64,000 nt of DNA from Sphaerolaimus hirsutus (Eukaryota; Nematoda; Chromadorea; Monhysterida; Sphaerolaimidae), in contig OZ038450.1 in the NCBI GenBank assembly GCA_964036195.1, forward strand, positions 33,807,197-33,871,196. Direction: 5' to 3'. The position numbers and the translations under genes are program-made. How positions within the stretch are numbered: the first letter of the stretch is position 1; each line of letters starts with the position of its first letter. The notes under the pieces are model-generated. The model was not told the origin of the DNA, made no database searches, and was given only the letters and a program-made list of their open reading frames with translations. Positions 1,498-41,511 of the stretch are shown here, piece by piece.

Positions 1498-1787
1498 GCG
1501 GCAGTTCCGTACCCTGTAAAGTGTAATTTCATATAAAATGTCAATCAAAACAGAAAAGAGAATATTTAATTACAGAAATTTTTGCACTTTGCATGACAAT
1601 TGACTGGCACCTGGGGTCACTCCCAGACCCTGTAAAATGACAATCGTCATTGTCACTGGCAAAGTGTCAAAAGTCAAATATAAAATAACAAATTTTGAAA
1701 TGGTGTTTTGACATTTTTCAAGACATTTTACATGCCTTTTGGAACTTTGCAGGACTTTTGACATTAGACAAGGTTTGGGAGTAGCAC
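1498..1787 (-). mobile_element. Two introner-family copies in tandem sharing one CTG target
   Basis: Copy one spans 1498-1610 (left GCGGCAGTTCCGTACCCTG, right GACTGGCAC). Copy two spans 1614-1787 (left GGTCACTCCCAGACCCTG, right GAGTAGCAC). CTG stands at 1495-1497, 1611-1613 and 1788-1790, so each copy is flanked by CTG and the middle one is shared. A third left end, GTGCCATTTCCGCAAGT, follows at once at 1791. Its right end could not be found before 2083. Confidence 0.7.
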
Positions 1788-3897: not shown

Positions 3898-5019
3898 TTC
3901 TGTGCAAAAAGTTGTTTTGTATTTATTTAGAGCAAGTGTTTAATGAATAGACTCCGCGCTCTGATGGTCTTGATTGGGTGAAATCGTGAGACTTTGAATG
4001 AAATGGGACTACCGTCGTTCTAGCAGTTGACAAAATGTCGTAAATTAAAAGGTTGGAAAATTGGTAGATAAAAATACAACCACAATTTTTAAGTTTGACA
4101 ATGATAATGATGTGGTGGCCTCCAAAATTTAGCTCTCTCGTAAGTGTCGATTTACAAACGACCGTGTTAGTAGTCATCTAGACCCCATTGGGGTGGGGGC
4201 ATAAATGAGCCACGGGGTTATCACGCGTAGGTGAGTAGCGGCCGGGGGATTAGACGACATGTGCTCTTTGTACCTGGTGTATGTGCATGTATTTATGCAC
4301 CCTGTGTGCTGTGCACAATTTCGCTGTAAATACGCGGTTATTTCGATCTAAAAATAAATTCAATGATTTACACTAAATACACAAATATTTGTGCAAATCG
4401 AGAATTTCGCGGCTACTTTGCCACGCCCCCCAATGTAAAAATATTAATCTATTTGCAAATCTAAAATAAATCAAATACGCATGCGATCTCAAGCCAGTGC
4501 CACTAATAGCCCGGCGCTGCTGATCTAGTTGCCCAACCCTCTGCCCGCTGTTCATCTCACCAGGGGCACACACCAGCCGTAGATTGATACCAGACCTGCG
4601 CCGAAAAAGCCTGTCATCTGGCACCCGTGTCGCCGCTTTTAATAGAACAAGCAAACGGCGCCAACTGACCCTTTCATTCATTTGAGGCACCATCAAAATC
4701 AACAGACCAACAAACATCTCATTGCCGCCATCACACAGGTGTCAATTCCTCAAGAAGACAAGTGTGAAGAAAAGTGGCAAGCGGTCAGTTGGAGGAACTG
4801 TTGTGACAACTAGTGTCAACTCGCACTCAACTTTCATTGAAAAATTCACTTGAAACAATTATTTACGTAATCTGCAACGTGACTCGCCGCACATAACTTC
4901 TTTTCAAGTGTCAGCTTGTGGAATTAAGCCCAGATAAAATTGGAAGTTCAGGCAAACAATAAAATATCAGAACAACCAAACAGGCCAAAGAAACACCCTA
5001 AAATCAGTGCAGCCCAAAA
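3898..5019. other. Intergenic stretch, no supported gene
   Basis: I see no exon that I can tie to a family. A 114-codon minus-strand frame (4717-4373) ends in a good donor-like CCTG|GTGAGAT near 4563, but its peptide is unrecognised and I do not call it. The part next to 5019 is the 3' flank of EEF1B. Confidence 0.4.
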
Positions 5020-8000
5020 TCAAATCTTATTGAAGGCAGCCACGTCGACGGATTGCACGAAATCTTCCATTTCAGTGATTTGTTCCTCCAGCCAATCGAT
5101 GCTAACTTTTTCATCCTCAACCACGCAACCGATTTGCAGTTTTTTGATGCCAAAAGCCACCGGGACTAATTTGCCTGAGACCGGCGAGCGTTTTGTGGAC
5201 AACATGCGGGTGGCGCTCAAACAACATGCGTGTAATACGCGGAAAGTTCAATTAACTCTGCAGACAGACCCACGCCCCGTGAAAGAATGCTGAATACGTT
5301 ACCCAACGCCGCATAAAAATATACCGCGTGCGGAAATATACACATACAGCCACCGTATTTCCTCGAAATACCCCCGGGGGTTTTGTTTTTTCATAGTAAG
5401 AATTTTGAGGGGGTATTTCGAGGAAATACGGTACTTAAAATTTAGCCATAAAAATGTCAAACATGAAAAGCGGCGAACCCCCTTGCAAATATGGGTCCCG
5501 GGCGACTCACAGACCCTGTAAAATGCCATGCAAATTGCCAAAAGTCATGTAAAATCCCATGAAAATTACCAAACGTGCAGTTAAATAAAATAAAAATTAA
5601 ACATTGTGCCTGCGCACACTAGTCTTCACACGAAATTTGGAAAACTCATAATTCAGCTTATAACGCACTTGAGTTTTCTACAATGAGTTGGCCGTTAACT
5701 ACAGTTGACGGAGATTAAAAATGACTCATTGTGGAAAACTCAAACACATTTAAAGCTGATTTATGAGTTTTTGAAATTTCGTGTGAAAACTAGTGTGCGC
5801 AGGGCCATTGTGCAAGACATTTTCCAGGGTCTGTGAGTGGCTCAGGGAAAACAAGTGGGTGCAGGGAGCAGAACGGACCGGCGCCCCAGAGCAGTCCCTC
5901 GGTGGCGATCTGCCTGACGGCGTGCTCCAGCTGCGCCATGTCCACCTCGTCGTCCCACGGCTTCACGTCCAGCACCACCGACGACTTGGCGATCGGCCCC
6001 GGCTCTGGGGGGAGCGCTTTCTTTAGTTTTTCATAAAATGCCCAGCCATTTCTTAATTTGCATATTTCACACTCAAAACACACTGCACTTCGCAGCAGCG
6101 CAGCCAGGTTTAACTTCTTTTTTTGAACTTTTTGTTGATTTTAACCTTTAAAACACGATTTTGAATTATATATCAGGGGTCTCCAATGGGGGGTGTTGGC
6201 GCATACCAATCGGCAAGCTATCTCCAACCCGCCCCCCAATCAGCCAGCATTTGGAGCAATTTGTGGGACATTTTACCCCAAATTTTGGTCAAAATAGCTT
6301 ATTTTAACCCCATTTTACTAAATCAAAGAATAAAAATGCAGCTATCCACCCACCCGGAGGAGCTATTTACTATTCATAAAACCCAGAAGAAATTATCAAA
6401 CTTTGGAGACCCGAAAAAATAGAGCAAACCAACTCTTTGATTTCTTGGCGGCATAAGCCTGCAGGCGTTCCTGCTTGATGCGTTCCTTTTCCTCATCATC
6501 CTGCAAAAACAGTTTAATATTTGTTTGTATACTCGGCAGACATCACACACTTACTATGGATACCTACCATAGCCCATCTGAATAATGGACACAAATTAGA
6601 CAGTTTTTCATCATAATATTTAGTTTTGACTATAGAATAATCTATTACAAAATTTATCACATGATTTTATTCATTAAATTTTGGTATGACTCTGCGTATA
6701 CTTTGCGGTCCGCTGTGGGTCTGAAAAAAGGTTAATTTTTTTAATTTTTAGCCACATGGAACATGCAAAATTTGAAGATCAATAATTTGGGTATTTCATG
6801 ACCGATTTCGTTCGTTTGACTTTTATTATGATCATAAATGTTTGAAGAGTTCATTTTTGAAGTCAAATTTGCTATTTACAATTTGCCATAAATCGATTTG
6901 GCCCAATTTCAGAATGCAAAATTTTGAGAAATTTTTTTTATTTGAACATGCTATCTCGTACTCTTGGTCGAAAGATACACTGTACCAAAAGAATCATATC
7001 GATATCTCTTTCCAATAAAAAGTTAGAGCACTTCAGACTTCCGCCTCCCATTCATACAATTACCCGCATGAAGAACAATGTGTGCAAAATCAAAACTCCA
7101 TATCTCGACCGATTTTTGCCAATGAACACTTAAAATGATTAGAATAATCTGGAGATTGTATATTTCATTATCAGATTATCTATATGAATTTTCATCATGA
7201 CAATTTCATCCAAGAGTTCGCATTATTAAGTTGTATGGGAAGTCTGATAAAATATATGCATAATTTGAAGAAGAAAAGCAATACCCATGTTATTCTGATC
7301 ATTTTAAGTGTTCATTGGCGAAAATTGGTGGAGAAATGGTCGAGGTATGGAGCTTCGATTTTGCACACATTGTTATTCATGTGGTTAATTGTATGCATGG
7401 GAGTGGGAGGTTTGAAGTGCTATAACTTTTGATTGGAAAGAGATATCGATCTGTTTATTTTGGTACCGTGTTTCTCTCGATCAAGAGTACGAGATAGCAT
7501 GTTCAAAAGAAAAAATTTTGCATTCTGAAATTGGGTCAAATCGATTGATGGCAAATTGTAAATCGCTAATTTGAGTTCAATAATGAACTCTTCAAACATT
7601 AATGATCATAATAAAAGTCAAACGAACAAATCGACTGTGAAATAGCCGAGTTTTTGAGATTCAAAGTTTGCATGGTCCAGGCGGCACACAATAGTTTACT
7701 TTTTTTCAGACCCACCCTATCTCGGGACTATTCGAGGATGCCCTCGATTTTCATGTTAGCCCCGACCTGAAACCATATTATATTCAAATTTCAACAATTT
7801 TCGCCAAGCGGGTCCGGAGATATAAACATGTGCTGACTGGCGAGACTCCCCCCCAATGCTACCCGTAAAATCCCCTATGTTTACAGCTCGGTTTACAGCG
7901 AGAAAAGCGTAAAATTAGTAAAGAAAAGTTTGATGTAAAATTATATCTAAATTATTTCATGTATTCTTTTATTTCAAGCCATTTTTAAAAAAACTTACTT

Positions 8001-9227
8001 AATTGAAAGAAATTATAGAAACTAGTTCCGCTCTAAAAAATTGACTTTAAAATAATCCAGATGCCTAAATTTTTATTTGCATCCTCAATACCATATCCAC
8101 CTCGCACACCCCCTAAAAAGTAACCCCCAAAGCTCAAAGGAAACCCCACCTCGGCGGTAGTATGGCGGGACTGACCAAAATATCGGGGGGGGGGGGGTTG
8201 GCATGGTTTCTTTTTTTTACCTCGCCTAATTTTTCGTTTTTGGTTGGAGGTTGATATTTAAAGAAGTGGGTAAACGGGGGAGTCGTTCCGGCATATCGAC
8301 GACGCCATAGGTCGCTGAGAACCATGACGTCATTGATATTAAATTTTTACCATAATCAGGGACGCATGTACATGCACTCAGCCACATGATTAGCACTGAG
8401 CGCATGCAGTTTTTTAGTAATTATCATGTGCACTGCACCCGCGCACATGTCGTGCCGCGCGAATTATAAATGGGCCGCGCACAGGTGCCTCCACTCAGTC
8501 GTTTTACTCGCTCAGCGTTGACCAAACCGTAGTCGGTCAATGCTGAGTGGGTTTATGTGCCAGAACAATATTTGGCTGACTGCGACAGCGCATGGCGCGC
8601 GTCATGCGTTATCGCAGTCAGCCAAATATTTTTCTGGCACGAGCGTAAAACGCCTCGCAGACTGGCGATGCAGTTGCCACCCACCTCTTCATCATCGGAT
8701 CCAAACAGGTCCACCTCCTCCTCCTCCTCCTCTTCCTTGGCATCCTTCCCTTTGGGGGGTGCGCCCGCAGAGGGGCCCGCCTTGGGCCAGGCACCCCTCT
8801 CTGAGTCACTGAAGCTGGCAATGTTCTTGTACCAGCGCTGCGCGTGCGGGTGCTTCGTGCCAGGGGCTGATTTCACTTGCTTGAACAGGGCACTGTCCAG
8901 GTCGCACGGGGTCCACCTGGGATTGGGCCATTTTTGAGGGTACATTAAATTTCCCAACTTTGCTGTACGGTAAACCCCCCCCCCCCCAGTAGCCAACTTA
9001 ATAACATTCACCGACTCATAGAATATAATACATTGCCCATTTTTCAACATACTAAATAAGTTAAAAACTCGATACAAACGAGCATCTAAATACGCAGCAC
9101 ATTGTATCAATCCGATGGCATTGCAATTTCAGGTTATCTTTATAAAATAAATTAACCCGTTGAGGTAAGGGGACGTAGCCAGGAACGAGTTCAGCCCATC
9201 CACGTTGTTCGCATCGAAAGCGGCCAT
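5020..9227 (-). CDS. EEF1B2: Translation elongation factor 1-beta (eEF1B-alpha), nucleotide exchange subunit
   Basis: Guanine-nucleotide exchange factor that reloads eEF1A with GTP during cytosolic translation. Five exons on the minus strand: 9227-9157, 8916-8685, 6500-6434, 6016-5879 and 5174-5020. Phases match (2, 0, 1, 1) and the total is 220 aa, close to the usual 225. Exons 1-2 give the short GST-C-like N-terminal domain (MAAFDANN..., [10 protein letters not shown]). Exon 2 ends in the acidic patch with the casein kinase II-type site DLFGSDDEE. Exon 3 is the charged linker. Exons 4-5 are the catalytic EF1-GNE domain with [26 protein letters not shown] and the C-terminal VDVAAFNKI. The exon 4 acceptor (AAAG|CG) is unusual but needed for the frame. 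Introns hold a fold-back element, an introner and the structured RNA candidate described separately. The gene is divergent from PFDN5. Confidence 0.95.
5352..5433. repeat. 82-bp palindromic MITE, ACCGTATTTCC ends
   Basis: ACCGTATTTCCTCGAAATAC at the left is mirrored by GTATTTCGAGGAAATACGGT at the right. The same terminal sequence bounds a longer element near 18276-19487. Tc1/mariner-pogo MITEs often have ends of this type; the class is inferred. Confidence 0.6.
5488..5850. mobile_element. Introner-family copy in EEF1B intron 4, split by a hAT-like insertion
   Basis: The left end has GACTCACAGACCCTGTAAAATG and the right end has CATTTTCCAGGGTCTGTGAGTGG. The copy lies about 30 bp inside the intron; EEF1B uses its own donor GCCG|GTCCGT at 5878. 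The interior is interrupted by the element at 5610-5805. Confidence 0.7.
5610..5805. mobile_element. hAT-like MITE with 8-bp TSD
   Basis: The ends are CTGCGCACACTAG and CTAGTGTGCGCAGGGC, with inner inverted CACACGAAATTT. It is flanked by direct repeats CATTGTGC at 5602-5609 and 5806-5813. An 8-bp duplication is the hAT hallmark. Related ends occur at about 37250 and 37930. Confidence 0.75.
6017..6433. other. EEF1B intron 3, nothing recognised
   Basis: AT-rich intron sequence between coding exons 3 and 4. No open frame or clear repeat beyond short CCGCCCCCC-type tracts was supported. Confidence 0.4.
6718..7718. mobile_element. 1-kb fold-back element in EEF1B intron 2
   Basis: Long imperfect inverted repeat centred near 7218. 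For example, TTCGTTTGACTTTTATTATG at 6811 pairs with its complement ending at 7626, and GGTCTGAAAAAAGG at about 6718 pairs with CTTTTTTTCAGACC at about 7715. No transposase remains. The core motif 'CACTTAAAATGATCAGAAT' type resembles parts of 33500-33700 and 35553-36752, suggesting one dispersed family. Confidence 0.65.
7719..8464. other. EEF1B intron 2 remainder, nothing supported
   Basis: I see no exon here. The stretch contains a G11-13 run near 8182 and a C-rich complement, and no convincing open frame. Confidence 0.4.
8465..8500 (+). promoter_or_regulatory. TATA box plus TCAGTC initiator, antisense inside EEF1B
   Basis: TATAAA at 8465-8470 is followed by TCAGTC at 8495-8500, placing the initiator A 32 nt from the TATA T. 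This spacing and the TCAGT motif match the arthropod-type RNA polymerase II core promoter. It reads on the plus strand, opposite to EEF1B, directly into the structured segment at 8500-8670. Confidence 0.4.
8500..8670 (+). ncRNA. Candidate structured RNA: three-way junction with a 38-bp hairpin
   Basis: P1: CGTTTTAC (8500-8507) pairs with GTAAAACG (8645-8652). P2: CTCAGCGTTGACC (8511-8523) pairs with GGTCAATGCTGAG (8535-8547), 12 of 13 matched. P3: the arm 8557-8594 pairs with 8603-8640, about 35 of 38 paired around an 8-nt loop. A further small hairpin CGCC...GGCG follows at 8651-8666. The upper half of P3 has the size of a pre-miRNA. It could instead be a fold-back DNA element; no target duplication was found. 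Confidence 0.35.
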
Positions 9228-9836: not shown

Positions 9837-11602
9837 ATGGCCGCCCCAGCTGCCGCCGATGGCAAGCAGCAAATAATTCGTTTGGATGATCTCCCCCTTC
9901 AGGTGTTTTTCATATTTGAGTTAATTACAACATTGTGCTCAGGGTCTACTTTGGGAATTTTTATATAAGATTGCGTTTTTGGACGAGTGCCAGGGGATGG
10001 CGATTGAAGATAAAGACGCACGTAAGGCGCTTTACTTGCGTGTCCGATGCCTAGTTTAGATGTGGTTGCCTAAAACCTAATCCTTGCCGCAGTCAGTTCA
10101 CGAGTTGCAGCAGCGGGTTGACCAGGAAGTGCAGTTTTTCGTTGAATCCCTGGCCAGTCTGGAGGAGGTGGCCAGGAAGTTCCGCACATCCAAACAGAAT
10201 GTGGCTACGCTGCGCAATGAAAAAGATGGCAATGAAGCACTCGTTCCTCTCACTGAATCTGTTAGTTCAGAGGCCAGTCACGCACCCTGTAATATGTTTT
10301 TCAAGTAAAATGCTATGTAAAGTGTAAAAGTCATGCTAGAAGTCAAAAAAGTTTATTTTTGACGTTTTTCATTGCATGTATTCTTACAGGTATTTTCACG
10401 AATTTAATGACATTTGACAGGGTCTGTGAGGGGCCCCAGGGTTTGATGACCGGGTAGCATGACTCATTTTATAAAACATTGTAGTATCGTCATACACTTC
10501 ATTTAAAAGCAACGGGTGTATTATTGATCTTCACTTGTATTTATTCGGTGTCTGTACCACTAGGGATGGCTGGAGTTTTTTAACGTTTTTTTCAAAGCCT
10601 GGATGTTCTTTACTTCACTCAAGTCAACACATCGAAAAAAAATTTGATGTTCAAATAGAAAAATCAATGGTTTCAAAAAAAATACCCCCTATGTATGTAT
10701 CACGATATCGCTTTTCTCCCTGCTAGAGAACTTGCCACTTATTCCATTCACACCCAGATTTTCTCACTTTTCGTGTGCAGATGTACGTAAAGGGAAAACT
10801 GCGAAATACTGGTTTCGTGCTAGTCGAACTGGGCACTGGCTACTACGCACAATTGGTTTGTTTTTGTTGTTGTTGTCTTTGAATAGTTTTTAAAAAAATC
10901 CTCGAATAAGTGCCCGGGTGTCATTTCTTCGTTAGAAACCATATTGGCGTGGATTATTGAAGCGAGTTCTTACACAATTGACTGCGAAGTAAATGCGCAT
11001 TGCGTATCAATTTTGAACGGAAGTAATTTTTTCTTTCCTAGGTCTAACTGTGGGAATAGAATTCGAGAGTGTGACTTATTTGGAGAATTAGCCGTCAATT
11101 CAATTTTTCCCCACTTTAGAAATAATCTTATCTGATCTCAGATCACAAAAATCTAACGTACTAAATCCACAAAATCACTAGATTTATTTCCCACAGCCGT
11201 TGGAGCGAGCGGAGGCATTTTTCGATCGAAAGCAGAAATTTGTTCAAAAGCAGATTTCTCAAATCGAGGGCATTCTTATGGAGAAGCAGAAAATGAAGCA
11301 AGGTGGGTATTGTGGCTATACACTATTTGGTTTACGGCAAAAATTTCGGAACCTGATAAATCTTTTTTACTCCTCTGAGTTTATGAATTCATTTTTGATT
11401 TCTATCAACTAATTGACGGACTCCTCATTCCGGCAAACTCACATGCCGTCATAGCTGACTTATTAGTTTTTGATTTACCATTTTGCCTTTAACGTTCAAC
11501 TATTATTGCACTGTCAGCCTAATTTAATGCATTTATTATTTTCCAGCTATCACCGCCACACTGCAAAGCAAGGTTGCTCAGAGTTTGTCCACGAAAACGT
11601 GA
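9837..11602 (+). CDS. PFDN5: Prefoldin subunit 5
   Basis: Alpha-class subunit of the hexameric prefoldin chaperone that delivers nascent actin and tubulin to CCT. Exons: 9837-9902, 10093-10260, 10781-10855, 11197-11302 and 11547-11602. All junctions are GT-AG with phases 0, 0, 0, 1, giving 156 aa (human 154). The N-terminal helix includes LQQRVDQEVQFF. The central hairpins include KGKLRNTGFVLVELGTGYYA, with the family's GTGYY signature. The C-terminal coiled coil begins ERAEAFFDRKQKFVQKQI. The start is the first ATG of exon 1 and is followed by an Ala-rich stretch. An AATAAA lies at 11665, 63 nt after the stop. Intron 2 carries an introner-family copy. PFDN5 converges with TFB1M, with about 200 bp between stop codons. 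Confidence 0.95.
10271..10436 (+). mobile_element. Introner-family copy in PFDN5 intron 2
   Basis: Flanked by CAG at 10268-10270 and 10437-10439. The left end is AGGCCAGTCACGCACCCTGTAA; the right end is TTTGACAGGGTCTGTGAGGGGCCC. It lies in sense orientation, 8-10 bp inside the donor. The gene's own donor (TCT|GTTAGT) and acceptor (TGTGCAG at 10780) remain available, so splicing does not need the element. Confidence 0.75.
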
Positions 11603-14800: not shown

Positions 14801-17546
14801 TGTCTGAAAAAATGCAGAGAAAATATAAGAAAATAATAGATATTTTTGAGAAAAAATTTACATAGTGGAAAAAACAAGTTGAAAATGTAAATAAATATTA
14901 GATTTTTGAAATTTTCTGATATTTTCAAATCTGTCAAATGTTGAAATGCTAATTTTGCTATGCTTGAGACAGATTTAATTATATTTTATTGAGAGATTTT
15001 CTGATTATATTCTCTCAAAATAAACCATCTTCCAGTGCCTGCTAGGGTGCATGCATGGGGGCAGGCCTGATACGCACATCTGCCCGTTACGCACATTTGC
15101 CCATTTTTTTCACTTGACACTTTTTCAAGTGATTTTCAGATATGAGTAAAGTGAAAAAAAGTTGCGCAATGACATTAGTGAACTTTTTTCACTTCACTCA
15201 TATCTGAAAATCACTTGAAAATGTGTCAAGTGAAAAAAAACAGTGAAAAATAGCCATTTTTCACTGTTTTTCACTTGACACATTTTCAAGTGATTTTCAG
15301 ATATGAGTGAACTGAAAAATGTTCACTAATGTCATTGCGCAGCGTTTTTCACTTCACTCATATCTGAAAATCACTTGGAAACGTGTCAAGTGAAAAAAAC
15401 GAGCAAATGTGCGTAACGGGCAGATGTGCGTATCAGTGCACCCCCGCATGCATGCAGGGTGAGCGCATTTGCAGAGAGGTCATAATTACTTACATGCCGC
15501 CACTACTTGAAGAGCGGGCTTACTTGCAGAAAGAGTTCTGGCCTTGCAATTCAGCCCAGCCCCCACCCCCACAAACGATTGATCAAAAAGTCGAGTTGGA
15601 CATGTGCCAAGTACTGGCAGATCACAGACAACCTGCACCTGTGCCGGCCCCCGATGGGCGCCGTCGCCCGCCAGCCCACTTCCTTCTGCAGCAACAGAGA
15701 ACAGGGGGTTCTGCCCACTTTGAATGCGCCCCGCCGCTGCGACATGTCGCGCAGTAGACTGGGGGGGGGGGGGTAGTCAAAAAAGTTTCTAGATTTTTTC
15801 GGATGAAATTTTAATCCAGTTTTGAATGGTCCTGGGCAAATTGAGAAGTTTAATAAACTACTTAGACGTGAGAAGCAACGATATAAAAGGAATAAAAATG
15901 ATAAAAAAGTTTTTTGAAGAGACAAATAAATTAAAACTGAAAGTTAAAAGAAAAGTAAACTCCTTTAACTTTAACTCTTTTTACTTTCCACTTCTAAATT
16001 GTTTTTTTTTTACCTATAAACTTGCAGAATTAACCATAAAAATGTTTCAACACTCCGAAATTTACGTCAGCGGTCAACGTGAAAAAATACAACCCAATAC
16101 CCAAATCTATTAACTCAACAACCACACTAAAAAGAACTGACTTAATCACCAACGGCGTGGCCACATTAAATGGCAAGTTGCCAGTGAACCTAGTTTTCGG
16201 CAACTGGTCACTCAGCCAATCAGCGCCGTACTTCTCTGCTGCGGGGCATTGCGCATTTGGCTGGGGCCAATTCCGCAAGTGGACAAGTAAAACACCATTT
16301 GAGAAGTGAAATGCGGAGTAAAAAGCTTAGTATAATGATAAGTGAGAGGTGAAATGAGAAGTACAAGATAAAAAGCGAAATGATATGTAAAAAGTTATAA
16401 GCTACCTGAACTTTTTACATCTCAACTTGTCATTTCACACTTCTTATTTTACATTTTAATCCTCATTTCACTTATCATTTGACGTGTCACTTCTGAAATG
16501 GTTATTTACTTGTGCACGTGCGGAATTGGCACCTGGTCCATTGCACCCCAAGCGCGTTGTTCGTAGTCAAAGTGCAGCGCGTCCGCGTGTTCGATGCGAA
16601 GCCGACCCTCGCTGCGCGATGCTAGTAACTGGCAGGGGTGCATTTCAATAGCGTTCACAATTCTGATGCAATTTGGCAAGTGCCACAAAAAAATGAGCTC
16701 AAGGAGTGCGTGGAAATGACAATTTATTTCCAACAAAAGCACAGTGTGCACATGATAATATTTATTTAACTTAAGCCGCCCCCAACAACCTGCAACATGG
16801 GAAAGAACCTCCTGTCTATCTCGAGCGCAGTCACAGAGTCAGGGAAACGTTCGAGTAGTCCCCTGGGGCCAGTCCCGCACCCGGTAAAGTGTAAAGCAAA
16901 ATGTCAATTTGAATAAAATAATATTGCTGAACGTTTGACATTTTACATTACATTTGACACTTTACTCTACACTTTACATGGTGCGGGACTGGCACCTGGT
17001 GAGGCTGCCGGCGCCAGCGCCAACTTCCACGACTGCGTGCCCGTCGAGTTTGTAGTTGGCTTGTGCACCAGCCACCTGGCCAGGAAATAGTGGGTCAACT
17101 TTGACTTGCAATTTATATTGGCCAGATAATCAACTATGATAATAGTGATACCTATTGATAATGGAAATTGTTTTCAAGAATAAATAATAAATCACAAATG
17201 TTGGCATTGTTGTATTGAAAATATCGGCGTGAAAACGTATCCAAACAGCCGCCACTCCACCCGAAAAATCTCAGATAAATTTTACGTGATGAGAGAAACT
17301 GGCGACATTTTACAGGGTGCCAGACAGGCCGCGGAAAAATAGATTCACGAAGGGAGCTCCTAAATCAGCACGCCCACACGCAGCATCTGAACAGTGCTGA
17401 AAGGAAGTCCCCCCCCCACGCACGTGCTTGGCGAGCCTCCTGCACACGTTCATGTCCAGCAGGAAGTGCTGCGCCAGGCGCTTGTCCGACGACAGCGCCG
17501 CCGTGCGCAGCAGGTCCGCCGCCGACGGCACCGAGGGCAGTCGCAT
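11807..17546 (-). CDS. TFB1M: Mitochondrial dimethyladenosine transferase 1 (mt 12S rRNA methylase)
   Basis: SAM-dependent enzyme that dimethylates two adenines in the 3' hairpin of mitochondrial small-subunit rRNA. Nine exons: 17546-17424, 17075-16996, 16862-16790, 16628-16533, 16260-16142, 15758-15577, 13990-13783, 13558-13439 and 11936-11807. Every junction phase agrees and the sum is 1131 nt, 376 aa plus stop (human 346). Motifs in order: SSDKRLAQHFLLDMNVCRRL; SAM motif VVEVGAGAGSLT; acidic LEIDRRF; HADALHF; catalytic motif GNLPFNVATPLVI; GRTPCSLLLQKEV; FVPRPLVDGALVTFTP; CDVYHEQC. Introns 2 and 4 each consist entirely of an introner element. Exon 6 is preceded by an acceptor whose pyrimidine tract is a run of C. 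The start is the first ATG of exon 1; a GTG-started upstream frame is ignored. Confidence 0.94.
11988..12380. mobile_element. 'CAGGGACGTAGCCAGG' TIR element in TFB1M intron 8
   Basis: Begins CAGGGACGTAGCCAGG and ends CCGGCTACGTCCTTG, with internal G-run and C-run tracts and GGCGCCATGGCG palindromes. Same family as 2084-3365, 32948-33382 and 37411-37856. Confidence 0.7.
12422..13263. mobile_element. hAT-like element made of CGATAT-type arrays, 8-bp TSD
   Basis: Begins TAGGGTTCAAACGATAT and ends ATATCGTTTGAACCCTA. Perfect 8-bp duplications TCTACTGG lie at 12414-12421 and 13264-13271. Both ends carry long runs of TTCGATATCGATATTCGATA-type units; the middle 500 bp is unique and AT-rich. It sits in the left arm of another TIR element (arms GGTTCCCATCCCAATTCAAA near 13272 and 13375). 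Confidence 0.85.
14015..14350. repeat. Minisatellite of GGTGGACATCTGCGCT units in TFB1M intron 6
   Basis: Imperfect units with GGACATTTG and GGTGGACATCTGCGCTCAGC recur about every 33-50 bp, then decay into CATGTGCTGCTGGTGCAT copies. An inverted partner sits at about 14300-14345. No coding role is seen. Confidence 0.55.
14556..14695. mobile_element. 140-bp hAT-like MITE made of GGAAAC arrays, 8-bp TSD
   Basis: Begins TAGGGTGTCAAC and ends GTTGACACCCTA. Perfect duplications GTTATGAC lie at 14548-14555 and 14696-14703. The interior is GGAAAC hexamers broken by a short spacer. Confidence 0.85.
15057..15445. mobile_element. hAT-like fold-back element with 8-bp TSD
   Basis: Termini GGGGGCAGGCCTGATACGCA and TGCGTATCAGTGCACCCCC. 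The duplication GCATGCAT lies at 15049-15056 and 15446-15453. The interior is alternating CACTTGACAC / GTGTCAAGTG and CAGATATGAGT blocks, two nested palindromes. A 228-bp relative sits at 17926-18153. Confidence 0.8.
15446..15576. other. TFB1M intron 6, exon-proximal part
   Basis: Short remainder between the hAT-like element and exon 6. No gene or repeat is recognised. The intron 6 donor chosen is AATC|GTTTGT at 15576. Confidence 0.4.
16264..16532 (-). mobile_element. Introner copy forming TFB1M intron 4
   Basis: Sense orientation with the gene. Exon 4 ends GACCAG and the element begins GTGCCAATTCCGCACGTG. The element ends TTGCGGAATTGGCC, followed by the CCAG that serves as acceptor. CTG (plus strand) stands at 16261-16263 and 16533-16535, the 3-bp duplication. 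The resulting 272-nt intron restores QRAWGAMDQ|PNAQCPAAEK in frame. The interior is unlike other copies (AAGTGAAATG-type repeats and inner inverted repeats), so the termini, not the body, define the family. Confidence 0.85.
16866..16995 (-). mobile_element. Introner copy forming TFB1M intron 2
   Basis: A 130-bp element. Exon 2 ends CTCACCAG, the element starts GTGCCAGTCCCGCACC and ends GGTGCGGGACTGGCC, and the acceptor is the duplicated CAG. CTG stands at 16863-16865 and 16996-16998. The intron of 133 nt interrupts the strongly conserved SAM motif region (GAGAGSLT|R), and removing it restores GSLTRGLLERF. The terminal repeats are near perfect over about 27 bp. Confidence 0.9.
17076..17423. 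other. TFB1M intron 1
   Basis: AT-rich intron. A stretch at about 17305-17330 (TTTTACAGGGTGCCAG) looks like a fragment of an introner end, but no partner end was found. The donor is CAC|GTGCGT followed by a G run. Confidence 0.4.
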
Positions 17547-17925: not shown

Positions 17926-18153
17926 GGGGCAGGCCTGATACGCACACGTGCCCGATACGCACATATGCCCGTTTTTTTCACTGGACACTTTTTCAAGTGA
18001 TTTTCAGATATGAGTGAAGTGAAAAAAGTTCACTAATGTCATTGCGCAACTTTTTTTCACTTTACTCATATCTGAAAATCACTTGAAAAAGTGTCAAGTG
18101 AAAAAAACGGGCATATGTGCGTATCGGGCACGTGTGCGTATCAGTGCACGCCC
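17926..18153. mobile_element. hAT-like palindromic MITE, 8-bp TSD
   Basis: Begins GGGGCAGGCCTGATACGCAC and ends GTGCGTATCAGTGCACGCCC, with arms complementary almost throughout. The duplication GTTGAAAC lies at 17918-17925 and 18154-18161. It is inserted into another MITE (about 17770-18175, with TGTCAACTGGGCCGACTGG and AGTTGACACCCAG ends) whose uninterrupted relative is at about 40270-40475. Confidence 0.85.
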
Positions 18154-22201: not shown

Positions 22202-25200
22202 TCATTCATCAGTCGGGTAGCATAAAATTTTCAACAGAATTAATCTGGCTGCCATAAAAAAACAATGGGGATAATTAAATCCGGCCCCTGGAGCAGATTT
22301 ATCCGTGTGCAACGGCGGGGGCCGGCGGCGCCAGTTCGTGTCTTCAGGTGGACACTTTGCACTTGTCCCCGCTTTGTACAGAAGTTCGTTGAAATCCTTC
22401 CAGGTTGCAAAGAGAAGAAATCAGTGTCGAAAGACGTTTTTTACCAATATTGAAAATTGACCAGATGGTTTTCCATCGTTATGGTTATAAGCAATAAAAG
22501 ACCACAAGTTTTGCCAAGTCAAATCCCCACCTGAACGCCCAGCATACTGGCAAATCGGGCAGTCTGCAGGTTCCTGTAGTAATCGCTTTGCCCGCCACAA
22601 TTGTCCAGCGACTCCCCATCCTAAAGTAGTTTCACACTTTATCAAGTGACAAATAAAGTGATAGATAAGTTGTCAGAGTGGTCAGATAAGTTGTCAGAAT
22701 GTCAAATGGTCGGGCGACAGGAAAGCTTTAAGTAACGAGTTTTCACTTCACTTTACGAATTTTATTAAGCACTTGAATTTCCAAAAAGTTCCTCATCACT
22801 TATCATCTTCCTTAGGACTTGACAAAGGGAGGAATTGTGACCTGGAGCACGGGCGCCGTGCGACAGAAATCGTTATTTATGTAATAGTGCCCATCTGCAT
22901 AATCCACTATCTTTGCCTGCCGCAAAATGTCGCAAACGGCAGATACGTCATGATCGCTGGGTCGGTAATCCCATCTGTGAGAGGTACGCATCAACATTGG
23001 ACATTTATGAACAAAAAGCGCCAGAAAGAACGGCGCCAGAAGACGCCAGTGCCATGGCATCAGCGAAAAATGTCAGTTGGCGGATTTACCCCCCCCCCAC
23101 AATTGGAGACCACTGACATTGGCACCGAGTGGCATTCCCGCACCAAGTCAGGTGTCATGTAAATCGTCATACAAATTTGTCAACTGTCATGCGAAATGTC
23201 AAAATTTCAGTATTATAATATTTTCTTTTTGATTTTAATTGACATTTTAGATGAAATTTGACACTTTACAGGCTTCCGGCGTACCAGGTTTTTCTGGCAC
23301 AATAAAAAACAGGTTTTACCTCTGCTTGCCACGCGGGGAGGGCATGTCGCGCTGTTCGGGCTTTATGCTCATCAGGTGGTCAGTGTTTTTGAGCACTGCA
23401 CACCACACAGGGTCGTATTCCAATCTCACCTGGGGCTAATACCGCACTTTGCCAAGTGCAACTTCAAGCGACAAATTTCAAACAAATACTCACATTTCCA
23501 GTGGCGATAATGGACTTACGCACACCACCAATTGGTAACAGAAAACTCCAAAGCTGATAATTTAGTTTCAAACACATTTGAGTTTACAGGAATGAGGTGT
23601 TCGTCAACTACCTCTGATGGAGATAAAATATCTATTATGGTGAACTGAATTTCTTCAAAATAGATCTATCGGTCATGAAAACGTCGGCTGTCAACTAGTG
23701 TGCATGTCGCGAAAAAGTGTGCACAATTGACATGGCATGCTATTCAACATTTGTCTCATTTTTTCAGTTGACAATTGACAGTGTGCGGTATTGGCACCTG
23801 GCCAGCGGGGGGCAACGCCTCACTCGTTTCCATTTCGACCATGTCAAGAAATTCCCGACCCGGTATTGGCTCATCCAATGCTGAAAGGTGAAAATCTACA
23901 TGAAAAGCATTACAGCACGTGAACTAGTAATTTTGAAGGTGTAAATTGGTTAAAAATAGGAAAATAGTGATCTTGAGTAAAAACTGGGGTAAAATTTCCT
24001 AAAAATAGCTCCAGATAAATAGCTAGCAGGTCGATTTATGCGCAGTACCAGTGCACAAGTAAACCCGGTGCAAAAGTAACAATTTCCGGTGCCAATGTAG
24101 ACCCGATGCTTAGGTACAGCCCCCATAATTGAGCACTGGGTCTTCATGGGCACTGCAGGGGCTCAGTATGGGGGGTTGGAGGGGGGTTGGGTTACTAGGG
24201 TTCAAACGGGACCGCGGTCCCGGTACATGGTTCGGCAAAAAGTCGGGACTGGGGCGGTCCCGGTCCCGGTCCCGACACCCCAGTCCCGGTCCCGGTCCCG
24301 GTCCCGACAATTGAAAAAGGCCAGTCCCGGTCCCGGTCCCGACCACCCAGTCCCGGTCCCGGTCCCGGAATTTTTCAGCGGTCCCGATAAGAAAAATTGA
24401 CCGGACTGGATCCAAATTTTGCCTTTTAAATACTTGTCAAATTCAAAAAAAATTCGCGCCAGTCGCCGCATTCTCGAATTTTTGACGTTTTTTTTAGTGA
24501 GTTCCAAACATTCTCATTCATGTTCGACATCAGAGAAGGCTGAAAATATAATTTACTTTCAGAAAGCACTGCGCCAGCTTATGTATCAATACTCACTGTC
24601 ATAATTTTTGTGCGTTATGTCATTTTTGTGACTCAATTGAATTTTGTGACTTTTACCATATTTTTGATGACAATTGTGATTGAATGTAGTGTGAAAATCG
24701 TATGAAACTTCTGAAAATATGCATTCAAATGGTTATCGGTCCCGATACGGCTCAAAAGGGGGCTGTGGCCCTGGTACCTGGTTCGGCAAATCCTGGTCCC
24801 GGTCCGGATGCCCCAGTCCCGGTCCCGGTCCCGACAATTGAAAAATGCCAGTCCCGGTCCCGGTCCGGACCACCTAGTCCCGGTCCCGGTCCCTGTCCCG
24901 ATAAGAAAAATTTCTGGTCCCGGTCCCGGTCCGAAAAACCGGTCCCGTTTGAACCCTATGGGTTACCCCCCAAACGCTCCAGCTATCGGCAAGGGCCCAT
25001 TCCGCAAAAAAGCCCATTCCGCATTTTTGCGGAATGCTACACTGTCCCAGCTATCTACATAATTATGTATCTAGCGATTTTTCCACCTTTTTTCCTTCTA
25101 AGAGGGCGCCAAAGTACGCCGCACCATGGCGCCCTTTCTACTATTTTTGCTACTTGTGCACCGACACACCCCTGTCGATTTTTTTTTTGCGGGGGGGCTT

Positions 25201-28200
25201 CGAAAGATAGTAGTCAAATATAATCCTGCCGCGGAATAGATAAATAGATAGCCTGAGAGGTTCGGGGTGGGGTTCCCGACCGGCAGTGCTCTATTCCGCA
25301 TCTAAACCATCCCGCATCGCTGTTAACCTGGAACACATTTAATTATACCTGGCATGTTGAAAATAGGTAATAAAACACATGACCTAGTTATTTTGAAGGT
25401 GAAAATCTATAAGAAGTAGGAAAATTAGGAAATTTTGGTGAAAATTAGGGTAAAATTGCTCAAAAGCGCTCCAGATAGCTAGATAGCTAGGCAATTTGCG
25501 GGTGTGGGGGTGCTCAAGGGAATGTAACCAAAAAAAATTGTGCCAGGGATAGATAGATAGCTGGGCTGTTTGGGGTGGTGTTACCCACCCCCCTTTCTTA
25601 CCCCTGCAGGCATAATGTGTCTATAATGGGTGTACATGCGGAATGGGATTTGATGCGGAATGGGCCCTAGCCTTCCCGACCCCCCCCCGTTCTACCCCGC
25701 ATTGACACAAACAGACCCAAAAAGTGGGTGGTCTTTGCGTCGCGGTGCTTCACGAGTGCCTCGAAGCGGCAGTGCAGATGCGCAGAGAACCAGCGCGTCG
25801 GCCGGAGCTCGTGCAGCAGCTGCATGTAGTAACTGCTGCCCAGACCACCCGCGGCCGCTTGCTTCTGCGTCGGTGCAAGCCTATCGGCTAGGGCCCATTC
25901 CGCATCAAAGCCCATTCCGCATGTAGACCCCTTATAGACACATTATGCCTGCAGGGGTAAGAACACCACCCCAAACCGCCCAGCTATCTATCTATCCCTG
26001 GCGCAATTTTTTTTGGCTACATTCCCTTGAACACCCCCACACCCGCAAATTGCCTAGCTATCTAGCTATCTGGAGCGTTTTTGAGCAATTTTACCCTAAT
26101 TTTCACCAAAAGTCCCTAATTTTCCAATGTCTTATAGATTTTCACCTTCAAAATTATTAGGTTATATGTTTTATTACCTATTTTCAACATGCCAGGTATA
26201 ATCAAATGTGTTCCGGGTCAACATGCGGGATGGGTTTAGATGCGGAATAGTGCACTGCACGCCTATCGTTGTACAGTGACTAGAGTTGGAAAAAAAAAAC
26301 GTTTTTAACGCCATGTTTTCTTTTTTTAAACAAGGTTTTTATAAACAGGGTGCACGCCAGGTCCGCCACTCAAAATCTGAGTCGGTGCCGGACGCCATAT
26401 CTCCAGTTGTAGTGGGGGGATTTATTCGAAATTTTGAGGGCATACACTCGAAACCCACCCACTACTATATACGGGCTGGGGAAAGTCGGCGACCCACCTG
26501 AGTGTCGGTCGCCGTATACATTAATAGTTTTTTTGAAAAAGTCGCTGTCCACGCGAGGTCCGCCACCCGTTGTTTTTTTTATATAACGGGCTGCCAAACT
26601 AAAACTGTTGGGGGGAATTGATCGAAATTTTGAGGGGCTGTACACGAGGGCGTGGGTCGGTGCCCAAGTAAAACCGGTGCCCAAGTACGCCCGGTGCCCA
26701 AGTATAAAGACCGGTGCCCAAGTACGCCCGGTGCCCAAGTAAAGTGCCCGTACTTGTGCACTTTACTTGTGCACCGGGCGGCTGTTTACTTGGGCAACAC
26801 TTGTGCATTACTTGGGCACGGTTGCGTCGGGCCGGGCGGGCCGGGTTTACTTGAATTGGAATTGGGGAATTTTCTGTTTTCTAAGGAATGGAAGTTTCAT
26901 GAAATGTCATGAAAAGTGTCAAAAGTCATGGTAAATGCCATGCAAAATGGCAACTGAATTGCCGTCTTGCAGGGCATTTCTCATGACTTTTGACACTTTT
27001 CATGACATTTGAAATTTTACAGGGCTTTTTACAGGGTCTGCGAAGTTGAATTTCCATGAAAAAAAAACCCTGGTGCCAGTCGTAAATCCTGTAAAATGTC
27101 AAATGTCATGAAAAGTGTCAAAAGTCATGGAAAATGCTATGCAAAATGGCAACTGAATTGCCGTTTTGTAGGGCATTTCTGATGACTTTTGACACTTTGA
27201 CTTTTGACATCTGCGTGTTTCGGGGTATGTTGTATGAGAATAGCAATGCTGGGTGGGTATGTGATCTGCACCTCTCCCATTGCTCCCATACGCTATCGCC
27301 CCCTATCGCTCCCATACTTGTGCACCGGGCAGGGCGCTTGCGCCTGCCCGGTGCCCAAGTAAACATCCGCCCGGTGCCCATGCAAAGAGCCGCCTGGTGC
27401 CCAAGTACGGACACTTTACTTGGGCACCGGGCGTACTTGGGCACCGGAACTTATAATTGGGCACCGGGCGTACTTGGGCACCGGTTTTACTTGCGCACCG
27501 GCTCAGCGCCTGTACACGACACCCCCCACTACTTTTCATGGAAGGTTGAGCCCCCTGGCGACCCCCCTGAGAGTGGACCGCTGGAAAATAAAATGATATT
27601 TTTGAGAATTCGCTGTCCAGGTTTAGCACTGGACAACAAAAATAAAAATTACATTAGAATGTCCCTTGGAGGACGATGTATACCACTGTGAAAAGTGTGT
27701 ATTCAAAAAGCAAATTTGAAAATGAAAATTTGATCTGGTATGAAAGTGTTTTTGACACACATACACAAGTTCCAGATTAAATTTCGATTTAAGTCAAATC
27801 CTTAATACACACTTTTAAAGCTGGTTTACGATGCCTTCTAGGAGATGATTTAAGGTAACCGTGAACACGTAAGATACATAAACAACATTGCCCCAAAAAT
27901 CAACCATGGAGATTTGATGGGGTCACTGTAATGATGTCATCGATGACATCATTCCAGGAACAAAATTCGCCTTGTGGGACAGCTTTTGTGTTGACCCCCA
28001 TCAAATCTCGTCTATGGTTGATTTTTGGGGTAATGTTGTTTATGCGAATTTTTACCTTAAATCATCTCCTAGAAGGCATCATAAACCAGCTTTAAAAGTG
28101 TGTATTAAAAGTTTGACTTAAATCGAAATTTAATCTGGAACTTGTGTATGGGTGTCAAATACACTTTCACACCAGATCAAATCTTTTCACACCAGATCAA

Positions 28201-31200
28201 ATCGTTTTAAAATTTGCTTTTTGAATACACACTTTTTACAGTGGTATACATTGTCCTCCAAGGGACATTCTAATGTAATTTTTTTTTTGCTGTCCAGTGC
28301 CAAACCTGGACAGTGTATTCTCAAAAATATCATATTATTTTCCAGCGGTCCACTCTCAGGGGGGTCGCCAGGGGGCTCAACCTTCCGTGAAAAGTAGTGG
28401 GGGGTGTCGTGTACAGCCCCTCAAAATTTCGATCAATTCCCCGTTATATCTCCACCTATACAATTTCGAGAGAACTGCACGCTAAGGATGCTTCAATGCA
28501 AAAGATAGGGGCACAATCACAGCCTCATTTTTTGCCCGATTCGTGTGTGTTTTTTCACACAATGCAGTCACTATTTATTAGTACAAAATGCCCTTTACAA
28601 ACACGTTACAATCTTGACAAACAGGGTTAGTAGATGGCAAAGTTGCTTCCCAAGAATGCAATTGGACAGGTATAGGGGGTGAACTTGAGTTTTTAGGGGC
28701 TGAGTTTTCAATTCAGGGTTGAGTTGATGGGTGTTTATAAATTAGGGTTGAGTTGACAGAAGTTTAAAAATAAGGGGCTGTTGACACAAGTTTACAAATT
28801 AGAGGCTGAGTTTATGGGAGTTGAGTTGATGGGTGTTTGCCAAATTAGGGGCTGAGTTTATGGGAGTTAACAATAACATTACCATAATCCTTCAGTGAGG
28901 ACCCTGGGGCTAAAAAATATAAATTGTGATATGATGCATTTGTGGGTTACTGATTACAATGATTTGAAATATGCACTCCATTCTGACAGTACATTACCAT
29001 AACCCTGAAATTGAATCCCTGTGGCCAACTTTCAAATTGTGAAATGATGCATTGTGGGTTTCTAATTGCACTGATTTGATATATAATGCACTCCATTTTG
29101 ACACTACATAACCCTGAAAACTACATGACCATAACCCTGAAAATGAACCTCTGGAACCAAAAACTTTCAATTTGTGAAATCATTCATTCTTGGGTTTCTG
29201 ATTGCACTGATTTGATATATGCACTCCATTTTGACACTACATTACCATAACCCTAAAAATGAACCCATGGGGCCAAATACTTTCAATTTGAGAAATAATG
29301 CATTTTCGGGTTTCTGATAGCACTAATTTAAAATATGCACTTCATTTTGACACTACATTACCATAACCCTAAAAATGAACCCCCTGGGCCAAAAACTTTC
29401 AAATCATAAAATGATGGATTTGTGGGTTTCTGAGTGTAACAATTTCAAATATGCCCAGGGCTTCAAAAATTAGAAATTGTGAAATGATTCAATGTGGGTT
29501 TCTGATTACACTGATTTGAAATATGCACTCCATTTTGACACTACATAACCCTGAAAACTACATAACCATAACCCTGAAAATGAACCTCTGGAGCCAAAAA
29601 CTTTCAATTTGTGAAATCATTCATTTTTGGGTTTCTGATTGCACTCATTTGAAATATGCATTTCATTTTGACACTACATTACCATAACCCTAAAAATGAA
29701 CCCCCTGGGCTGAAAACTTTCAAATCATAAAATGATGCATTTGTGGGTTTCTGATTGTAGCAATTTCAAATATGCACTCCATTTTGACACTAAATTACTA
29801 AAACCCTGAAATTGAACCCCTAGACCCAAAAATTTCAAATTGTGAAATGATGCATTTTGCAGGTTTCTAATTGCACTGATTCGAAATGACTCAATTTCAA
29901 CTCTACATTACTGTAAGCCTTAAATTGAAAATTGAAAATAAATTAGAAATTGTGAAATGATGCATTTCTGGCTTTTTGATTGCCTTGATTTGAAATACGC
30001 AGATCATTTTGACACTACATTACCATAACCCTGAAAATGAACCCCCAGGGCTAAAAATTTTCAAATCATAAAATGATGTGTTTGTGGGTTTCTGATTGTA
30101 GCGATTTCAAATATACACTCAATTTTTACACCACATTACTAAAACCCTGATAATGAACCCCTGGGCCCAAAAACTTTCAATTTGTGAAATGATGCATTTG
30201 TGGGTTTTTTATTGCAGTGATTTGAGATGTGCACTCCATTTCTACTCTACATAACCATAACCTTTAAGTCTAACCCCTGGGGCTAAAAAATTGAAGATTG
30301 TGAATTGATGCATTTGTGGATTGATGCTAGCGATTATTTCAAATATTCATTCTTTTTTGACACTACATTACCATAAACCTGAAAATTAGTTTACAGGAGT
30401 TTCCAAATTAGGGACTGAGTTTATGGGAGTTTCCAAATTAGGGGCTGAGTCTATGGGAGTTTCCAAATTAGGGGCTGAGTTTACAGGAGTTTCCAAACTA
30501 GGGGCTGTGTTTACAGGATTTAGAGGGGGTCCCCATGGGGTGCCATTTTTGGGGGGTCTCCAGGGGGTGCCATTTTTTGGAGGCACATATGGGGGTGCCA
30601 TTTCAAGGGGGTCCCCATGGGATGCAATTTTTTGGGTGGTCCCCAGCGGTGCCGTTTTTTGTTGGTCCTTAGGGGGGTGCTATATTTTTTTGTGGGGGGG
30701 GGGGTCCATAGGGGGTGCCATTTTGGGGGGGGGGGAGTCCCCAGGGGGTGCCATTTTTGTGGCGGTTCCTAGGGGGTGCCATGTTTGGGGGGTCCCCAGG
30801 GGGTGCCATTTTTGGGGGGTCCCTAGGGGGTGCTATTTTTGGGGGGTCCCTAAGGGGTGCCATTTTTTGGTGGTCCTCAGGGGGTGCCATATTTGTGGGG
30901 CCCTAGGGGGTCCCATTTTTGGGCAGTTCCCAGGGGGTGCCACTTTTGGGGGGTGCCCTGGGTGATGCCATTTGGAGGGGGTCCCCACTGGGGTGTCAGT
31001 TTTTGCAAGCCTCTGAGTAGTGGGTACCTATAGCAGGATTCTCTCCAACCTTCAGTTGGGTTTTGTGGTTCTCTACAATTAATACCACAAGGATTTACAA
31101 ACACAAAAAGAACAGCAAAGCACAAATGTAACCAATTTAAGATAACAACAAAGTTTGACACCTTGCAAAAACCACACTATCATATCACAAAACCTATACC

Positions 31201-39700: not shown

Positions 39701-41325
39701 GTAAGATGATGCTTGAAGAATGCTACCGTATTTTGAAAAATGTAGAATGTAGAACTGAAATCAATGTATTGAGAAGTAAATTATAGGTGAATCGACGAAA
39801 ATATCGCTACAAAAACTGGCGTATATATATCCACTGGGGCTCCAATATTCAGCGGGCAATTTTCGGTTTTCGCATGCAAAATCTTTACCTCTTCAAATCC
39901 TGTTTTCCCACATTTCATTTGTCAGATTTCAGGTTTCTTGCTGGAGACTTTTGCCTTGTGCTTTACCGACAACTCATTTTTATACACTAAAATAAACACA
40001 AAAATATCGCACCATCTGTTTTGTTGCCGCTACTGCAGTTTTCCTCCCCCGTTCGATTTTGATCATTCTGTATGCAATCTGACGCCATGGCGTAAAAATT
40101 GAAAAGACCAGAAACACGGATTTCGAAATAGCTTTTTCTTTTTTTGTGGAAATCATTTTTTGGATACATAGATTTTATTCAAATAATCGCTTCGCTAGGT
40201 AGTTTTCGCTTCCACTTCTCTCAAACAGCGAAGACGATTCGCATAAACGAAAAATAGAGATGTTCCAAAGGCCCAGCGCACACTAGTTACAATGACGTCG
40301 GGTGTCAACTGAGCCGACTGGTTTCCATTCACATTATAAACAGTTGAAGCGTCGCCGAACCAATATTAATTCCTTTTCACATTGCCGCATGCGCACTTGA
40401 AAATAGTTCTGCGACCTGTCAACTAAATTCTGAATTGACATAGAAACCAGTTGACATAAAGTGTATGTAGCGCAATTAGTAACAATTTCTGATCGTAGGA
40501 GGTCGGATTTTGGATAGACGACAATTGGGGACTTCCATTTCAAAAGTTCACAAGCGGCAAATCCAGAAAAATCGAGTTAAGCGTGGATTGCACGTATAGT
40601 TTTTCACATTTTAGGAAAAAAATTAGCTTTATAGGCCATTTCGTTCCCGAGATATTTTACAGTGGTACCGGATTTCAGAAAAATCACGATTTTCATATCA
40701 AAAGTTCACATATCCATGACCAGTGCCCTATGAAAAACAGGACTTTCATTTAGAAAATGCATAAATCCATCTCAGACAGCCGGAGTTTCTTCTTCTTAAT
40801 ACTAATAGGGGCGGGAGGCTTGGGTCACTGCCAAAAAATCCAGCACACACAACTTACAAGCTGACTTAGGGAGTTGCCAGAGTCAACTTGTGGTAGAAGG
40901 GGAATTGGGTCCAAGTAAAAAATTGAATTGCTCCCTGGTCCTAGGGAACAATGGAGCTATTAGCTACAAGTTCACTGAGTTTCCAGAGTCAACTTGTATC
41001 AGTAAATTGAATTGGTTCCTGGTAGAAAATTGAATTGGTTCCTGCTCTTAGCTAAGGAAATTCTTGCTTCCTACAATTTTGAACTTGGACAACCCCCCAT
41101 CCTACGCACTGGGGGCCACTGGTCGGGAACACCCCCTACATAAAAATACAATCCCAATATAGGAAGTAGAACCCTATATTGAGTCTAGGTGCAGACCCAA
41201 GTGGGTCTGACTTTAGCTCTGGCTGTCCAGGGAGCTGGTTTTATACTGGGTGGGTGAGAGAGGTAAGAGCAGTTACACTAACACAGTGGGCGGAGCCTGC
41301 AAGCAAGCTGCTTTCAGGGGGCAGT
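39701..41325. other. Intergenic region between DBR1 and the satellite
   Basis: No exon recognised. A MITE with CGCACACTAGTTACAATG and TGTATGTAGCGC ends lies at about 40270-40475 and is the uninterrupted relative of the one around 17770-18175. 40860-41100 holds short repeats of TTGAATTGGTTCCTGG and GAGTCAACTTGT type. Confidence 0.5.
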
Positions 41326-41328
41326 CCC

Positions 41329-41511
41329 AGATTCTGTTAACTGCAAAGTAAGATGTCAAATGTCATGCAGTGTCAATTATCATGACAAATGCAAAGTAAA
41401 GTGTCAATTGTCACACAAATTTCAGTAATAAAATATTCTTTTATTGATTGACATGACATTTGAGATTTGACATTTTACTTTACACTGTACATGGTCTGGA
41501 ATTGGCACCAG
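41329..41511 (-). mobile_element. Introner-family copy next to the satellite
   Basis: GGGGCAGTCCCAGATTCTG at the left and GGTCTGGAATTGGCAC at the right, with ATTTGACATTTTAC inner blocks. It is flanked by CAG (plus strand) at both ends, i.e. a CWG duplication. No gene is seen around it. Confidence 0.75.

Follow-up and report, generated by a model that had tools for sequence, protein, structure and literature searches.

In a 64,000-nucleotide stretch of the genome of the nematode Sphaerolaimus hirsutus (contig OZ038450.1, positions 33,807,197 to 33,871,196; hereafter the window), we found a family of short elements with terminal inverted repeats (TIRs), whose copies make up introns of two genes, TFB1M and DBR1 (lariat debranching enzyme). 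All three copies that interrupt these genes at a CAG target with their GT end first coincide, together with one copy of that CAG, with an exact intron. Judging from the sequence, we consider it highly probable (roughly 0.87) that the family consists of non-autonomous DNA transposons resembling miniature inverted-repeat transposable elements (MITEs), 130-370 bp long when uninterrupted, which act as introners, their edges serving as splice sites.

Two introns of TFB1M consist of one element and one CAG

TFB1M lies on the reverse strand, with five exons placed between 16141 and 17546 (17546-17424, 17075-16996, 16862-16790, 16628-16533 and 16260-16141) and more exons matching downstream, near 15760-15602 and 14.0 kb. 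Its spliced product resembles mitochondrial dimethyladenosine transferase 1 (TFB1M) in PDB (best E 4e-19), and the Pfam domain RrnaAD, matched over residues 21-163, covers the joints of introns 2 and 4. A preliminary description of this DNA had claimed that each of these introns is exactly one element plus one CAG, and our coordinates agree with it to the base. Intron 2 (16863-16995, 133 nt) is composed of element B (16866-16995, 130 bp) and an acceptor CAG at 16863-16865, the first CAG copy (16996-16998) being the final three bases of exon 2. Intron 4 (16261-16532, 272 nt) is likewise composed of element A (16264-16532, 269 bp) and an acceptor CAG at 16261-16263, and the first CAG copy (16533-16535) ends exon 4. 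As also stated there, the donor GT is the start of the terminal repeat, both introns opening with CAG|GTGCCARTYCCGCAC, and the acceptor AG is that of the second CAG, both closing with GGCCCCAG|; the two pairs of edges read CAG|GTGCCAGTCCCGCAC...GGGACTGGCCCCAG| and CAG|GTGCCAATTCCGCAC...GAATTGGCCCCAG|.

The terminal repeats of the two introns agree at 14 and 13 of their first 15 bases and both introns form strong predicted hairpins (z = -12.0 and -11.9), while none of the seven ordinary TFB1M and DBR1 introns tested had a terminal repeat above that of shuffled sequence. Neither intron has a length divisible by 3, and all three frames of both hold stops. When alternative joints were scored against a profile built from 120 homologues, most of them bacterial RsmA, three of the 22 GT/GC-AG pairs of intron 2 were in frame and the exact edges scored highest (143.0 vs 136.7 and 132.4 bits).

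A third exact intron lies in DBR1

DBR1 occupies 23320-39161 of the reverse strand (exons 39161-39036, 38573-38405, 35420-35392, 35238-35084, 34307-34184, 25864-25717, 23880-23798 and 23429-23320). The intron at 23430-23797, which was absent from the preliminary description, is again one element (element C, 23433-23797, 365 bp) plus an acceptor CAG (23430-23432). Its excision fuses ...EALPPAGQ with VRLEYDPVW..., with the joint after residue 278, and the Pfam DBR1 domain (residues 245-312) runs across this joint. Fifteen of 91 splice pairs were in frame, the exact pair (458.6) being the top GT-AG pair among the eight listed. Like A and B, element C has stops in all three frames. It also contains another repeat, common to element J, and this nested repeat may be the reason for its weaker hairpin (z = -2.1).

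A further observation concerns intron 1 of DBR1 (38574-39035), which opens with CAG|GTGCCT and contains two introner-like ends (39022 and 38687) together with an ordinary, T-rich acceptor; it is perhaps a decayed or rebuilt element copy.

The family is repeated in the window and across the genome

Ten full-length elements (A to J) were recognised in the window. Eight of the ten carry matching CWG on both sides, the duplication described for NuwaI transposons (see below), and seven have GT at one end and a G as second base at the other, the remaining three (E, I and J) being without a GT end. Two types of repeat can be told apart: type I, with CCCT|GTAAAA 18 nt in (B, E, F, G, H, I and J), and type II (A, C and D). 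A terminal-repeat profile, trained on eight of the window elements it finds, detected 22 ends of at least 13 bits in the window, compared with none in the reversed window and none in each of 20 shuffles. With the element in question left out of training, B, C, F, G and H were regained with one or both ends at 11-20 bits, while A reached 10.8, E 7.7 and D 4.6 bits; D, E and H were the weak scorers. The 22 ends correspond to 13 places, of which 11 lie beyond the TFB1M finding, and weaker ends add more, so the earlier estimate of about fifteen other copies, in either orientation, was a fair one.

A genome-wide search for the terminal repeat with its flanks, which the preliminary description had proposed, bore out the family. 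In the assembly of which the window is part (348,482,957 bases, 762 contigs), GTGCCARTNCCGCAC was found 379 times and its reversed pattern 47 times; preceded by CAG, as CAG|GTGCCARTNCCGCAC, it was found 130 times and the reversed control not at all. We retrieved the first 90 of these 130 copies and looked for a partner repeat, defined as one that agrees at 14 or more of 25 bases and is followed by CAG, which was present in 36 of them, three being those of the window. The paired copies have a median length of 191 bp, a few exceeding 500 bp; short, multi-copy, bounded by TIRs and flanked by a target duplication, they have the features of MITEs. Those compared are not young, since the best end-to-end identity, near-duplicates aside, was 83% (L025 and L040).

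Of the 33 copies outside the window, 30 joined peptides were scanned, three near-duplicates being left out, and in five of them a Pfam domain crosses the restored joint. These domains are ALIX (L025, 2e-21), ANF_receptor (L029, 6e-14), a domain of metabotropic glutamate receptors, and Tudor (L026, 3e-6), as well as two below the Pfam cut-off, HNOBA (L077, 4e-4, beside a guanylate cyclase domain) and DUF229 (L081, 3e-4). Related elements are thus found in unrelated genes (TFB1M, DBR1, ALIX, a glutamate-receptor-like gene and a Tudor gene), as is the case for introners. Exact removal left at least 30 open codons on each side in 21 of the 30 copies, compared with 14-16 of 30 when the cut was displaced by one or two bases (Wilcoxon P 0.007), and codon scoring of the downstream flanks, a weak test, favoured sense over antisense in 25 of 33.

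As to ends in other contexts, 37 of 100 ends listed were preceded by CAG, and of the other 63 we retrieved 37, 11 of which were preceded by CTG. A comparison of codon scores between CAG copies and 21 non-CAG copies, which is a weak test, gave P 0.06. Ten joined control copies without CAG yielded a single domain match, L105, which proved to be another well-formed copy, and so the non-CAG class is no clean negative.

Two sets of near-duplicate loci (L065/L066/L067 and L044/L045) were also observed, with elements 95-99% alike; the loci of a set share their flanks, and each bears a copy between CAGs. An edge-pattern match in viral contigs (L001) was taken as chance, as it appears to be ordinary coding sequence and no second repeat was seen nearby.

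Points against exact splicing at the element edges

Several results weigh against this interpretation. The preliminary description had stated that removal of both TFB1M introns restores a conserved frame; this is upheld by the RrnaAD match across both joints and, for intron 2, by the exact pair scoring best, but not to the same degree for intron 4, where 16 of 60 pairs were in frame and the exact pair was outside the 12 best listed. Homology does not settle the joint there, as it falls in a variable loop. At element C, three GC-AG pairs slightly outscored the exact pair (460.9, 460.4 and 458.8 vs 458.6). In the genome-wide sample, 54 of the 90 CAG copies were without a recognised CAG-flanked partner and were not counted as excisable, and no domain crossed the joint in 25 of the 30 scanned copies: two (L043 and L053) matched a domain weakly downstream of the joint, one (L040) had low-complexity matches below the cut-off, and 22 had none. 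Codon scoring of the upstream flanks showed no separation, sense exceeding antisense in only 17 of 33. Finally, the edge donors and acceptors are at the weak end of the gene set: the donor GTGCCA fits 6 of 9 consensus positions, vs 5-8 for the other placed introns, and the element acceptors have 7-9 pyrimidines among 17 positions, vs 7-13.

Alternative splicing outcomes and origins

A different outcome would be splicing at sites inside the elements rather than at their edges, the messages keeping some extra codons. Candidate sites do exist, as the CCCT|GTAAAA of type I repeats offers a donor and its reverse complement, TTTTACAG|GG, an acceptor; among the 36 paired copies an internal GT is found at +19 in 24 upstream ends and an internal AG at the matching far-end place in 20. 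The +18 donor preserves the frame in TFB1M intron 2 (132.4 bits), and for element G (below) the best GT/GC-AG option is an internal acceptor. We nevertheless regard this as unlikely in general: the exact edges gave the top score in TFB1M intron 2 and the top among GT-AG pairs for element C, element B has lost the internal acceptor (CCGG), and element A, of type II, lacks a comparable site at 18 nt.

Two other explanations are very improbable. The first is that old, ordinary introns were filled later by transposons. Elements E, I and J do sit in ordinary introns, which in these genes are often long, yet the three exact introns hold only the element and one CAG, the other CAG ending the exon, and it is not credible that both edges would fit by chance three times. 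The second, to which we give equally little weight, is that no removal takes place, with the genes broken or the insertions read through. Element G can be read for 51 codons in frame with DBR1 without a stop, as this would allow; against it, A, B and C carry stops in every frame, yet the TFB1M and DBR1 exons around them are collinear and profile-matched on both sides. Spread by reverse splicing, an RNA-based route that would also place similar introns in unrelated genes, is almost certainly wrong, as the TIRs, CWG duplications, CTG targets, non-exonic copies and both orientations fit DNA transposition.

Exonic copies at CTG targets

Besides the three exact introns, DBR1 coding sequence is interrupted by element G (35239-35391 with its target, element 35242-35391, reverse strand), which separates the exon pieces 35420-35392 and 35238-35084 at a CTG target and has an edge without AG. 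It lies between the YYL and GWAG of a conserved DBR1 stretch, and the animal DBR1 profile, matched by a weak piece (E 0.18) as far as position 107, restarts at 107 after 50 intervening residues. An internal acceptor, CTTTTTGCAG|GG, lies 18 nt before the exon. Of 72 splice pairs, 25 were in frame, the best being the edge donor with this internal acceptor, which adds six codons (448.0); read-through scored 436.8, and exact removal 458.6 but with the need for a TG acceptor.

The second case, L105, is flanked by CTG at both ends and interrupts a gene for a rhodopsin-family (7-transmembrane) receptor, with the domain 7tm_1 across the restored joint (5e-11). Its insert of 179 nt is not a multiple of 3 and has an in-frame stop, and so it must be removed, otherwise the gene is broken. 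An open frame was kept by 24 of 66 GT/GC-AG pairs. Among the 15 listed, all six GT-AG pairs use an acceptor 24 nt into the downstream exon, skipping eight codons, while the GC-AG pairs would alter the protein by a few codons.

The existence of these two copies means that the CWG duplication does not always supply an edge AG acceptor, and CTG copies must use an internal acceptor, use a rare TG acceptor or be retained in the message. An intron-making family with a CWG duplication, as proposed in the preliminary description, is supported by the three exact window introns and the genome-wide sample. It is conceivable, though doubtful, that CAG and CTG are equally targets of the family and that a duplicated CTG acts as a TG acceptor here, GT-AG and GT-TG introns arising from one edge. 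In human U2 introns, TG 3' splice sites are reported as alternative sites in the available part of one study (PMC2374985); these are a precedent for the CTG copies, with the difference that TG would here be the only exact site.

Target preference and the two element ends

The family favours a particular sequence context. Among 30 unique copies, the base before CAG is C in 22 and the base after it a purine in 22; within the window, C adjoins CWG at 10 of 16 half-sites (P 0.002), or at 8 of 14 (P 0.01) without element F, whose flanks are other copies. With this preference for CCAG followed by a purine, insertions tend to fall where the sequence resembles the end of an exon. The two element ends are unlike each other, one starting GTGCC and the other mostly GGG. 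Among the 36 paired copies, the second base of the far end is G in 24 and T in 4, and this end starts GGG in 18, whereas the donor end is GTG in all, as fixed by the search pattern.

A proposed mechanism and its relation to known systems

The sequence itself shows elements with TIRs between two CWG copies. Where, within a gene, the GTG end lies upstream at a CAG target, the arrangement is exon-CAG|GT...CCCCAG|exon, the element bringing the donor GT and the duplicated CAG the acceptor AG, and removal of the element and one CAG restores the uninterrupted coding sequence. We propose that a transposase acting in trans, probably PIF/Harbinger-like (of the NuwaI group), inserted the elements and that the spliceosome cuts at their edges; the protein being spared by splicing, such insertions could persist. 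Copies also occur away from exons, at CTG targets and in either orientation, as DNA transposition predicts. Recent intron gain is here inferred from the target duplication rather than from an empty site.

Among transposons, the family is probably closest to the NuwaI elements, which belong to the PIF/Harbinger-like superfamily (PHIS) and are described, in the available part of the report, as animal transposons with CWG duplications whose terminal repeats, 12-61 bp long, usually begin with GGG (PMC4482050). Our family is like them in its CWG duplication and animal host, and its far end, starting GGG in half of the paired copies, would fit NuwaI; it differs in its donor end, which starts GTG, and NuwaI is not described as intron-making in that part of the report (PMC4482050).

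The target of the zebrafish Harbinger element is CWG-centred, a motif for which a literature search gave no confirmation. CACTA (EnSpm) elements also have a 3-bp duplication and have ends that start with CACTA; this identity was rejected, as the ends of our family start with GTG or GGG.

Introners are a known kind of element, of which the present family looks like a new member. How new introns arise is a long-standing question, and animal introners are scarce in print, being known in two groups according to the accessible part of the survey by Gozashti et al. 2022 (PMC9860276). One mode described there is a carried 5' site with a 3' site from the duplication, in Chrysochromulina, with a 4-bp duplication and no TIRs. 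Like the introners of that survey, ours are related introns in unrelated genes, alike as far as both splice sites, and they have the TIRs and target duplications known from many of its families; unlike them, as far as the same part of the survey goes, they have a 3-bp CWG duplication and TIR ends that differ at the second base. The family may figure in the survey's supplementary family table. Non-canonical introns are found in Fritillaria tunicates, and introner transposons are suggested as one source in the part of that paper available (PMC13326754); those, too, are animals, with unusual splice sites accepted, unlike most placed introns here, which are GT-AG. The preliminary description could not match the family to a described one. 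This stands as regards introners, since no introner family with a CWG duplication was found in literature searches, which took in no supplements, subscription papers or bioRxiv, but CWG duplications as such have been described for NuwaI.

The contigs of this assembly, about 30 Mb long, and its 130 or more donor ends preceded by CAG make it possible to tally target, orientation and splice outcome. CAG and CTG copies form a natural experiment, the same element and edge being one acceptor base apart, and their contrast could be used to quantify how far the spliceosome depends on AG and how selection acts for or against newly made introns. As a curiosity, one of the carrier genes encodes the lariat debranching enzyme itself.

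Other elements, genes and repeats of the window

The window also contains a gene for eEF1B (5023-9227, reverse strand; Pfam EF1_GNE match) and one for prefoldin subunit 5 (PFDN5; 10093-11301, forward strand; Pfam Prefoldin match), and Rfam and tRNA scans of it gave no matches. In trees made of eEF1B and DBR1, this eEF1B falls among metagenomic proteins; both proteins resemble those of animals. Element D (4739-4930, forward strand) lies directly downstream of the eEF1B stop, with CAG on both sides, and element J (5500-5843, no strand assigned) lies in an eEF1B intron, with no clear duplication. CAG also flanks element E (10271-10436, no strand assigned) at either end; this copy sits within an ordinary intron of PFDN5, 10 nt past the exon end. 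Element I (31735-31931, no strand assigned), also without a clear duplication, is in a long DBR1 intron, and element H (41318-41508, reverse strand) lies upstream of the placed DBR1 exons, with a CTG target on its GT-first strand. Element F (1614-1787, reverse strand), flanked by CTG on both sides of the forward strand and hence by CAG on its GT-first strand, lies between ends of other copies.

Other repeats were observed beside the family. A second palindromic repeat is nested in elements C (23541-23703) and J (5632-5798) and occurs once more at 11.3 kb (11344-11476). A separate palindromic family, with ends like GTGCCCGWTACGCAC and arms alike at 38-39 of 40 bases, is present at 15080-15423 and 17948-18131, and an inverted-repeat element at 24993-25667 has ends, GGGCCCATTCCGCA, that resemble introner ends, without a CWG duplication. 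A 654-aa open reading frame (54762-56726) matches Pfam DUF1759 (2.5e-32), a domain typical of the gag of BEL/Pao retroelements. Lastly, a tandem array of 10.3 kb (41849-52157) is built of about 747 copies of a 14-bp unit, GTCAGATTTCCACA, and has an introner-family end (52160) at its border.

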